Shown: piece by piece, positions 2,954 through 7,789 of the stretch | How positions within the stretch are numbered: the stretch's first letter is position 1 | Layout: each line of letters opens with the position of its first letter | NCBI GenBank assembly: GCA_946626535.1 | Contig: CAMOUK010000048.1 | Coordinates: forward strand, 1-7,789 | Reading direction: 5' to 3' | Length of the DNA stretch: 7,789 bases | Source: an uncultured Caryophanales bacterium | GTDB taxonomy: Bacteria > Bacillota_I > Bacilli_A > Acholeplasmatales > Anaeroplasmataceae | Translations under genes and position numbers: made by a program | Notes under the pieces: model-generated | Database searches by the model: none | Seen by the model: the letters and a program-made list of their open reading frames with translations, nothing else | Told to the model about the DNA's origin: nothing

Positions 2954-2987
2954 AAAGGAAGATAAGAATATCTTCCTTTTTATTTTT
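2954..2987 (+). terminator. intrinsic terminator of pepF
   Basis: A perfect 11-bp stem (AAAGGAAGATA at 2954-2964 with TATCTTCCTTT at 2969-2979) closes an AGAA tetraloop and runs into a T-rich tract to 2987. The end of the tract overlaps the first half-site of the downstream operator array. Confidence 0.92.
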
Positions 2988-3082
2988 GCGCATTTATAAA
3001 ACATAAAAAGCGTAAAAATTGCGCCTTGATAAAATTGTAAAAGCGCAAAATTTGCGCATTAGCAATTGACAAAAAGCGCAAA
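2977..3082 (+). repeat. 33-bp phased operator array (GCGCAAA / TTTGCGC) upstream of mntA-like gene
   Basis: Four GCGC-centred sites repeat with an exact 33-bp period. Site 1 is a right half only (TTTGCGC, 2985-2991). Site 2 is an imperfect 15-bp palindrome (3010-3024, differing from site 3 at two positions). Site 3 is a perfect palindrome of 7-bp arms around one base (GCGCAAA, A, TTTGCGC; 3043-3057). Site 4 is a left half only (GCGCAAA, 3076-3082). Their centres fall at 2984, 3017, 3050 and 3083. The DNA between sites is also partly repeated (TT..A.AAA and AAAAA runs), so the block resembles three degenerate 33-bp tandem copies. Site 4 lies inside the -35/-10 spacer of the next promoter, and site 3 lies just upstream of the -35. 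I infer autorepression by the HTH domain of the protein encoded downstream; binding is not shown by the sequence. Confidence 0.8.
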
Positions 3083-3094
3083 CTCTATTAAAAT
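3066..3094 (+). promoter_or_regulatory. sigma-A promoter of the mntA-hepT cassette
   Basis: A consensus TTGACA (3066-3071), a 17-nt spacer and TAAAAT (3089-3094). The predicted start is near 3101, so the leader is only about 10 nt and contains the ribosome binding site GGGTGAT (3101-3107). A GCGCAAA operator half-site occupies 3076-3082 in the spacer, where a bound repressor would block polymerase. Confidence 0.82.
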
Positions 3095-3111: not shown

Positions 3112-3579
3112 ATGAATGAACTACGAAAAGTTAGACAATTGCTGAATATAACTCAAGTGGATGCCGCAAATATTTTGAATATTTCTAGAAGAACTTATCA
3201 AAAATATGAAGCATTAGATGATTTAGATGATAAGTTAGAATACTATGTTTACAAATTAAAAGAATCAAATGTCATCGATGAAGAAAACGGGATATTAAGC
3301 ATTGACACTATTAAAAAAGAAGTAAATAATATTTTTTCCAAGTATAAAATTAATTTTTGTTATCTATTTGGCTCTTATGCTAAGAATAAGGCTACCCCAT
3401 CTAGTGATGTTGATTTATTGATTGATTCTGATGTTACTGGATTAGATTTTTTTGGATTGGTAGAAGAATTGAGACAAAAATTGCATAAGAGAATAGATTT
3501 ATTAAAATTGGAGCAATTGGATAATAATGAAGAACTATTACGCGAGATTATGAAGGATGGAATAAGAATATATGGATAA
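3112..3579 (+). CDS. HTH + MNT-domain antitoxin-like nucleotidyltransferase (MntA family)
   Basis: A 155-residue two-domain protein. Residues 1-45 form a Cro/XRE-like helix-turn-helix (VRQLLNITQVDAANIL followed by ISRRTYQKYE). Residues 70-155 form a minimal nucleotidyltransferase with G87-S88, ten residues, then D99-V-D101: the GSX10DXD signature of MntA, which binds metal and ATP. In characterised MntA-HepT pairs the antitoxin neutralises HepT by transferring AMP to a tyrosine in its RX4HXY motif. An N-terminal HTH suggests this antitoxin also binds the GCGCAAA array upstream and represses its own operon; that is inference. The ATG at 3112 is preferred to an in-frame GTG at 3103, because the GTG lies inside the ribosome binding site GGGTGAT (3101-3107). 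It overlaps hepT by 8 nt, which suggests translational coupling. All visible catalytic residues are present. Confidence 0.88.
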   Translation: MNELRKVRQLLNITQVDAANILNISRRTYQKYEALDDLDDKLEYYVYKLKESNVIDEENGILSIDTIKKEVNNIFSKYKINFCYLFGSYAKNKATPSSDVDLLIDSDVTGLDFFGLVEELRQKLHKRIDLLKLEQLDNNEELLREIMKDGIRIYG

Positions 3580-3907
3580 TACTAAAATACCGAAGTATTA
3601 TGTAGATAAAATAATTAAAGATATTGAATTTTGTATCACTAAATTAGAAAAGAAGGCACCTGATGAATTTGATGAAGATGAAGTTTTGAGTAGCGCAATA
3701 AGTTTTAAATTCATTCAAATATCTGAAAATGTAAAAAAATTGCCAGATTCAATTTACAAAATGTATCCAACTATTCCATGGGTAAAAATAAGTGGCTTAC
3801 GTAATCGTATTGTCCATGATTAAGGTTCTGTAAAACTTAATATAATATATGATACGGTGAAAGAAGATTTACCAAAATTGGTCTCATCGTTGAAGGAAAT
3901 AAAATAA
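3572..3907 (+). pseudogene. hepT: hepT-like HEPN toxin gene interrupted by TAA at the RX4HXY tyrosine codon
   Basis: Read from ATG 3572, the frame gives 83 residues of a HepT/DUF86 protein: helical N-terminus, then AISFKFIQISENVKKLP, YPTIPWVKISGLRN and RNRIVHD (R77 to D83). It then meets TAA at 3821-3823. The same frame reopens at once and reads GSVKLNIIYDTVKEDLPKLV... for 27 codons, to a second TAA at 3905-3907. This is the expected HepT C-terminal helix, so the ancestral protein was about 111 residues. The family motif is R-x4-H-x-Y; R77 and H82 are present, and codon 84, which should be Tyr, is the stop. A one-base change (TAT or TAC to TAA) explains it. By family knowledge the motif forms the RNase site and the Tyr is the residue AMPylated by MntA, so the product should be inactive. 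The start overlaps the antitoxin gene by 8 nt, behind a weak AAGGATGG. Sequencing error is the main alternative. Confidence 0.85.
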
Positions 3908-4004: not shown

Positions 4005-5480
<1,476 letters not shown>

Positions 5481-5562: not shown

Positions 5563-6105
5563 ATGAAAAAGGTAATATTATTTGGAGGCTGTCTTGCAGC
5601 CGGCAAATCAACATTTTCTAATATGGTTGGTGACAAATATAATATTTTAATTATCAACAAGGATAATTTAAAAGAAATATTAGGAGATAATTTTTTTGCT
5701 AAAAATAGAGAAGAAAACAAGAAATTATCTGTGGCATCATTTCAACTTATTAAATATATATTATATAAAGAAAAAAATATAGTTGGCTTCGAATCAAATT
5801 TTAAGGATTATGAAATGGAGGAATTGACTAAATATTTTTCTTTAAATGATATTGATGTTTTATCATTTGTCTTTGATGCAGATGATGAAATATTGCATCA
5901 AAGATTTTTAAAAAGATTAAATGAAAATAGACACTATGTTCATAAGTCAGAGGATTTTAGTAATCTAGATGATTTTACTAAAATGCTTAATGGCTTAAGA
6001 AAGGTTAAATATCCTGGTAAGGTAGTTAATATATGCTGTAATGATTTTTCATATCAAAAAGATGAAAAATTATTTAAGATAGTAGAACAATTTTTAAGTG
6101 AATAA
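5563..6105 (+). CDS. small P-loop kinase / AAA_33-type NTPase of unknown substrate
   Basis: A 180-residue soluble protein. Residues 4-17 (VILFGGCLAAGKST) are a first beta strand plus Walker A (GxxxxGKST, K15, S16). The segment INKDNLKEIL (31-40) matches the DNA/RNA-kinase and zeta-like layout, in which an acidic residue (here D34) follows strand 2. F-E-S-N-F (76-80) fits the ESNF motif seen in AAA_33-type kinases. An arginine-rich lid follows strand 4: DADDEILHQRFLKRLNENRH (105-124). This supports phosphoryl transfer to a small molecule or nucleic acid end. The substrate cannot be named, and I see no antitoxin partner that would make it a zeta toxin. The ATG at 5563 follows AGAGGATG (5551-5558). 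Only 18 nt separate it from the preA-like gene, so the two are probably cotranscribed; a shared metabolic role is possible but unproven. Confidence 0.75.
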   Translation: MKKVILFGGCLAAGKSTFSNMVGDKYNILIINKDNLKEILGDNFFAKNREENKKLSVASFQLIKYILYKEKNIVGFESNFKDYEMEELTKYFSLNDIDVLSFVFDADDEILHQRFLKRLNENRHYVHKSEDFSNLDDFTKMLNGLRKVKYPGKVVNICCNDFSYQKDEKLFKIVEQFLSE

Positions 6106-7620: not shown

Positions 7621-7653
7621 AAAATCGCTTTCATTTTTTGGAGGCGATTTTTT
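7621..7653 (+). terminator. intrinsic terminator of the kinase-preA operon
   Basis: AAAATCGC (7621-7628) pairs with GCGATTTT (7644-7651), extended inward by a U-G and a U-A pair, with a loop of about 11 nt and a T-run ending at 7653. It lies 21 nt after the preA-like stop codon and just before the rRNA promoter. Confidence 0.85.
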
Positions 7654-7675
7654 ATAAAAAAAGTAAAAAAAATTG

Positions 7676-7704
7676 TTGACTTAATATTTGGTTTGTAGTA
7701 GAAT
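7676..7704 (+). promoter_or_regulatory. consensus sigma-A promoter of a ribosomal RNA operon
   Basis: TTGACT (7676-7681), a 17-nt spacer and TAGAAT (7699-7704) make one of the strongest promoter matches in the window. An A-rich tract (7654-7672) precedes the -35 and could act as an UP element. The likely start is G7712. No open reading frame follows; the transcript carries the rRNA leader signals described below. Confidence 0.85.
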
Positions 7705-7711
7705 ATTTCTC

Positions 7712-7789
7712 GTGCGCTGATGAAGTTGCATAAGAAATTTGGTCTTTGAAAACTATATATAACTTAAACGAAAAACAAACAATAAAACG
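7712..7789 (+). other. rRNA operon 5' leader, 16S gene expected just past the window
   Basis: The untranslated leader contains GGTCTTTGAAAAC (7741-7753), which matches the boxA antitermination element TCTTTGAAAAC found ahead of 16S (and in the 16S-23S spacer) in Firmicutes. Because a strong promoter is directly upstream, the 16S leader is the better reading. The rest (7754-7789) is A-rich with no coding potential. No mature rRNA sequence is inside the window. Confidence 0.82.
7741..7753 (+). promoter_or_regulatory. boxA rRNA antitermination element
   Basis: GGTCTTTGAAAAC matches the Gram-positive boxA, which by established knowledge recruits NusB/NusE (S10) so that polymerase reads through rRNA genes. 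It lies about 30 nt after the predicted transcription start. Confidence 0.75.

Follow-up and report, generated by a model that had tools for sequence, protein, structure and literature searches.

The locus described here raises the question of what a nonsense codon at the motif tyrosine of a HepT toxin has done to its operon: whether the codon is real, whether loss of that tyrosine is what disarms the toxin, and whether the same thing has happened elsewhere. The window, that is, the whole stretch of 7,789 nucleotides analysed, comes from a contig of an uncultured Caryophanales bacterium of the Anaeroplasmataceae. We propose that it very probably carries a type VII (HEPN-MNT) operon whose toxin was recently inactivated by one nonsense mutation. 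The features on which the argument depends are the following.

1185-2945, + strand: pepF, the upstream neighbour of the two-gene operon
2986..3084, + strand: three 33-nt direct repeats with GCGCAAA/TTTGCGC half-sites, from a search for direct and inverted repeats
3066..3094, + strand: sigma-70-like promoter TTGACA-17-TAAAAT, 11/12 match, overlapping the third 33-nt repeat
3112-3907, + strand: two-gene operon mntA and hepT, from ORFs and profile matches
3112..3579, + strand: mntA, a 155-aa antitoxin with an N-terminal HTH_3 and a minimal nucleotidyltransferase domain, GSX10DXD intact
3572..3823, + strand: truncated hepT frame, 83 aa, with an 8-nt overlap with the end of mntA; R77 and H82 of RX4H encoded
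3821..3823, + strand: premature TAA at codon 84, in the column of the AMP-acceptor Tyr
3824..3907, + strand: untranslated hepT tail, 27 codons and the natural TAA (3905-3907); in relatives with an intact gene it codes for the final HEPN helix
3909..3950, no strand assigned: hairpin resembling a terminator, in the gap that separates hepT from gdh; score taken on the minus strand
about 4005-5360, - strand: glutamate dehydrogenase gene gdh, convergent to the operon

The mnt gene lies directly upstream of the HEPN gene, which is the arrangement expected of type VII systems, and the neighbouring MNT protein carries GSX10DXD. Terminator-like sites are more frequent in the region than expected (3 found vs 0.2), and no Rfam family reaches its gathering score in the window. 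The best matches of gdh, searched within the family that holds both G001 (a goat-reticulum Acholeplasmatales genome) and G002 (an Anaeroplasma genome), have 82-83% DNA identity over most of the gene, and by this measure none of these genomes is near enough to be of the same species. Among the matches listed, those to pepF and gdh stand side by side in no genome of the family, so the comparison with an empty site yielded no syntenic junction; in G028 the two genes share a contig about 81 kb apart, and in the other family genomes they are on separate contigs. Further downstream, a small ORF at 5563-6105, between gdh and a dihydroorotate-dehydrogenase-like gene, resembles a P-loop kinase (AAA_33, with a weak Zeta_toxin match), and the 3΄ end of the window (7640-7789), which has no Rfam match, presumably resembles the leader ahead of a ribosomal RNA operon.

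The residue replaced by the stop codon

As the initial annotation described, and as the sequence and its ORFs confirm, hepT opens with ATG at 3572, runs for 83 codons to a TAA at 3821-3823, and continues in frame for 27 open codons to its natural TAA at 3905-3907. When the two pieces were searched separately against PF01934 (HepT-like), the match of the N piece (E 5e-11) spanned profile positions 5-93, and that of the C piece positions 96-120 (E 0.03, 14.5 bits, under the Pfam cut-off of 23.5). Since both match on either side of one column, the stop stands in the missing column and no frameshift is involved. The N piece retrieved 57 HepT relatives, 52 of which hold the motif, and the stop column is Tyr in 51 of these 52; the lone exception, P0029, has Asp there and comes from a genome whose longest contig is 515 bases. 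The remaining five relatives end or diverge before or within the motif. In a 59-row profile alignment the same column is residue 104 of Shewanella oneidensis HepT (PDB 6m6u/5yep), and the sequence of 6m6w, the Y104A mutant, has Ala in it; the profile thus succeeded where single-sequence searches of the PDB with P0001 and MntA as queries had given no match at E 0.01. Residue 104 is reported as the AMP acceptor of S. oneidensis HepT (PMC7641770), so the TAA replaces the AMP-acceptor tyrosine. The proposal that the stop sits on the conserved Tyr of RX4HXY is therefore borne out by the Pfam pieces, the relatives and the structural alignment alike.

HEPN toxins of this kind (PF01934/PF08780) are recognised by RX4HXY; in the window RX4H is present and the Tyr is a stop, and both P0001 and P0002 have the complete motif. 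The hepT of the window is thus a broken member of the HEPN-MNT family and very probably not functional. P0001 has 111 aa; its N piece departs from that of the window at one residue, and that of P0002 at three. Both relatives have Tyr at the codon-84 column, and both are identical to the window over 27/27 tail residues. The lesion is therefore probably recent, as had been supposed from the open downstream frame, with the limit that the closest intact relatives were compared as protein, so that age is not expressed in substitutions. A lesioned toxin, an open antitoxin and intact close relatives together give the picture of a locus decaying toxin first. In two other relatives, P0015 and P0025, the N half is that of P0013 or of P0023/P0024 and the tail past HDY is like that of another HepT subfamily, a pattern suggesting either that recombination took place at the motif or that the short contigs are chimeric.

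The truncated toxin and the antitoxin left beside it

Because the stop falls on the AMPylated residue, the initial annotation regarded the toxin as precisely disarmed by the loss of this tyrosine. The published mutants point elsewhere. In S. oneidensis the Y104A change was reported to leave the toxicity of HepT unaffected and to reduce its neutralisation by MntA (PMC4621449, PMC7641770), and changes at positions 107 and 118 to abolish toxicity (PMC4621449). These two positions are columns 87 and 98 of the profile alignment, both in the lost tail; the last helix comprises residues 89-110 in the structure model of P0001, and 104 residues of this model can be aligned with 6m6u. Since the equivalents of the toxicity-essential residues 107 and 118 have gone with the tail, and since a Y104A toxin is still toxic, truncation rather than loss of the tyrosine makes sense of survival here, and the disarming would be more readily accounted for by the missing last helix. 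The identity of this HepT to the Shewanella chains is 14-21%, so low that transfer from Shewanella residue by residue is uncertain. We also considered selection aimed at the tyrosine as the main cause, and rejected it: Y104A is toxic, and the Tyr codon provides 2 of the 56 one-step nonsense options in hepT, all weighted equally. The exact position of the stop is unremarkable and needs no special cause.

The 83-residue product would keep the R and H of RX4H, which are needed for toxicity and are still encoded in the frame, and would lack the AMP-acceptor Tyr as well as the entire last HEPN helix; such a truncated HepT probably misfolds or fails to dimerise and would then be degraded. It is conceivable that the truncated protein is made and functional, either as an RNase beyond the reach of AMPylation by MntA or as a non-toxic decoy that binds MntA, and both the remaining R and H and the persistent, less well neutralised toxicity of Y104A fit with this. 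However, a toxin beyond neutralisation should kill the cell, and the entire last helix, with the essential equivalents of 107 and 118, is gone, so that we regard this reading as very improbable.

The antitoxin, by contrast with the broken toxin, is intact, as had been stated: MntA keeps GSX10DXD, its HTH domain (HTH_3, E 4e-6) and a promoter-like site. The three 33-nt repeats are probably operators of HTH-MntA, which would make it a repressor. The promoter match by itself is weak, since the region has 5 promoter-like sites against 8.2 expected. Palindromes occur upstream of many related HTH-MntA genes, though not all. In a strict scan, perfect palindromes with 6-bp arms were found upstream of 37/61 loci with intact hepT, 9/12 with a single stop and 1/2 with several, and palindromes of the same type upstream of 3/5 frameshifted loci, 5/8 partial ones, 6/17 without hepT and 0/2 undecided. 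A shuffle test reached p <=0.05 in only 33/107 loci (intact 17/61, single-stop 6/12, multi-stop 0/2, frameshift 2/5, partial 3/8, without hepT 5/17, undecided 0/2), for which reason DNA binding by MntA is put forward as a prediction; the best single palindrome of the window has p 0.10 in the same test. With HTH-MntA, promoter-like site and operator-like repeats in place, the cell would keep an adenylyltransferase and probable autorepressor, and with hepT broken this enzyme would be left without this toxin to modify. Compared with PADLOC, MntA (3112-3576) matches the candidate defence families PDC-S09 (best E 5e-16) and PDC-M05A (3.6e-9), and neither hepT piece has a PADLOC match at E 0.1.

Other HEPN-MNT pairs place the locus among known systems. 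PDB entries 7ae2, 7ae6, 7ae8 and 7ae9, which we take to be from Aphanizomenon flos-aquae, are structural matches of the HepT model, and 7ae2 and 7ae9 are matches of the MntA model too; the MNT chains of these entries align only to about residues 60-155 of MntA, that is, without its HTH. The pair of S. oneidensis (SO_3166/SO_3165) likewise has adjoining genes, a PF01934 HEPN protein with the RX4HXY column and an MNT protein with GSX10DXD, but here identity is low and hepT is cut at the Tyr codon. A further difference is the N-terminal HTH of MntA, SO_3165 being described as having no predicted DNA-binding domain (PMC4621449).

hepT lesions in a survey of Bacilli

HTH-MntA genes were located with an MntA alignment (A2, E up to 1e-20) in two overlapping genome sets, one of 160 from the order and one of 395 from the class. 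An iterated profile, with stops read as X, was then used to look for hepT downstream. Counting each place once gave 111 loci and the window, 112 in all, of which 110 could be decided, L006 and L078 being set aside. Partial or weak MntA matches (L021-L024, L027, L028), duplicates (L048-L051, L056-L058) and G224:C33:299-601, which lies inside L078, were left out of the count. hepT is intact in 62 of the 110 loci, broken in 27 and not recognisable in 21. The broken genes comprise 12 with a single in-frame stop (the window, L053, L055, L067, L070, L074, L085, L090, L129, L131, L136 and L138), two with several (L016, L096), five with a frameshift (L004, L010, L081, L082, L110) and eight that are partial or remnants. 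An ORF rule alone would have given 67 intact genes; L053, L074, L082, L129 and L136 were classed as broken on inspection. L074, L129 and L136 have an early stop followed by an in-frame ATG and could give an N-truncated product of 91-95 aa, so that loci without an intact toxin number 48/110, or 45 if these three still make one. Three of the eight partial genes (L013, L047, L075) are very weak or position-only matches, and taking them as absent changes 27/21 to 24/24. Where hepT is absent (21 loci), the downstream DNA was read as ORFs only, and another toxin may lie there. A second mark in L131, at column 110, is the natural gene end, as in L130 and L132.

At L078 (G224:C33) a second, decayed MntA (model positions 55-155, five stops) adjoins the open one, and no hepT was seen in the 741 bases downstream. 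No relative was found among viral contigs and plasmids. The open HTH-MntA/HepT pair L171 lies in MT836394.1, labelled Bacteriophage sp.; its neighbouring ORFs look like bacterial genes for UTP-glucose pyrophosphorylase and a tRNA methyltransferase, and L171 is probably bacterial DNA, not phage.

These counts bear on whether the stop in the window is real. A sequencing or assembly error is a reading that one base decides, and near-identical intact copies exist, so the living strain might have an intact hepT. Nevertheless, hepT carries one to three in-frame stops in 14 of the 110 decidable loci, and the other main genes of the window are all open, whereas the control gene pepF, five times the length of hepT, has stops in 0/39 family matches and in 3/150 class matches among the matches listed (237/395 genomes matched). 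Two of these three pepF genes (in G455 and G344) have five and six TGA respectively and no other stop, as expected if TGA is read as Trp, which they suggest for these genomes. Constraint is stronger on pepF than on hepT; pepF therefore bounds assembly error and is no neutral yardstick. On this evidence we consider an error in the window unlikely.

Functional recoding, which had been raised for the case that relatives shared the stop, and programmed readthrough to a full-length HepT fare worse still. The downstream frame is fully conserved in the window copy, as readthrough would require, but close relatives have Tyr rather than a stop, the 14 loci with in-frame stops have TAA, TAG and TGA at unrelated columns scattered over the gene, and an Rfam family at gathering score is lacking from the window. 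Recoding was therefore rejected, and readthrough has next to no credibility.

The columns of the single stops, which range from 8 to 89, return us to the functional truncated protein. Besides the window (column 84), single stops lie just past the motif in L070 (column 86) and L053 (column 89), and L082 has a frame change nearby, so that a preferred truncation point just past RX4HXY is possible. Three of the 12 single stops fall in 6/112 columns (about 0.02 under a uniform model), but the cluster was spotted after the fact and carries no argument, and some of the remaining single stops are found already at columns 8-20. Inactivation of hepT by one nonsense mutation remains the reading that we prefer, and loss of the toxin as a first step is found again and again in Bacilli.

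Order of loss and its meaning

The addiction model predicts that the toxin is lost first and the antitoxin later, since deletion of the antitoxin gene alone is reported to have failed in S. oneidensis (PMC4621449). Taking as MntA damage a stop, a lost GSX10DXD or a truncation, we found it in 0/62 loci with intact hepT, in 2/27 with broken hepT and in 10/21 without hepT. With kinship ignored, 0/62 against 12/48 gives a Fisher p of 2e-5; under the same proviso, L074, L129 and L136 taken as intact give 1/65 against 11/45 (p 2e-4), and stops alone as damage give 0/62 against 5/48. The MntA tree gave 22 kin-independent pairs at its starred branches; damage to MntA went with hepT damage in 2-6 of them and against it in 0 (median p 0.125), and the order of loss corrected for kinship is not significant because too few pairs differ. 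The tree was built from 108 rows, 106 of them labelled, four loci with MntA segments of <120 residues having been left out. It requires at least 38 changes of the intact/broken label, 22 of them forced by well-supported starred branches, against about 34 with shuffled labels: hepT losses are scattered and shallow and are not clustered on the tree. Between L131 (G415) and L132 (G239) 4/811 bases differ, one of them within the stop codon of L131, and hepT of L132 is intact. A search from the toxin side in the 160 order genomes found hepT at 34 places (E up to 1e-8), of which three are not beside a surveyed MntA. G015:C123 stands where a contig begins, as does G099:C231, which has 8 stops; G082:C8 has two TGA; a full-length open orphan hepT was not seen in these genomes.

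Toxin-first decay is known in principle, and the window is a broken member of an established type VII HEPN-MNT module. One parallel is ccdO157 of E. coli, the original paper on which is reportedly Mine et al. 2009. Chromosomal toxin-antitoxin loci such as this one are described as decaying by deletion or nonsense mutations (PMC7167474, PMC2654758), likewise a degeneration, but in another family and phylum. In Klebsiella, antitoxins without a valid toxin are reported to be widespread (PMC7192599); HEPN goes unmentioned in the main text of that paper, whereas here the hepT lesions are read directly. Our literature search, mainly of open papers, yielded, among the titles listed, none that deals with the decay of hepT or with HTH-MntA/HepT as an arrangement, and what specialists may not have met before is the tally of recurrent hepT losses.

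The locus is ordinary in kind, and offers a clean snapshot of the first decay step in a toxin-antitoxin pair. It also corrects the tempting misreading that losing the AMPylated tyrosine disarms HepT. The survey makes such decay measurable: hepT has been hit independently many times, and MntA is undamaged beside all 62 intact hepT genes. In type VII systems this asymmetry of damage offers a natural way to test addiction, for which more kin-independent pairs are needed. As a tentative idea, which we think more doubtful than probable, HTH-MntA/HepT pairs of Bacilli may turn over by frequent, independent and in many cases very recent inactivation of hepT, the leftover HTH-MntA being kept transiently, and for its own sake, as a self-repressing adenylyltransferase that would protect against incoming HepT; it would then be more than a simple remnant. 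This anti-addiction idea can be tested on the collected orphan HTH-MntA genes.
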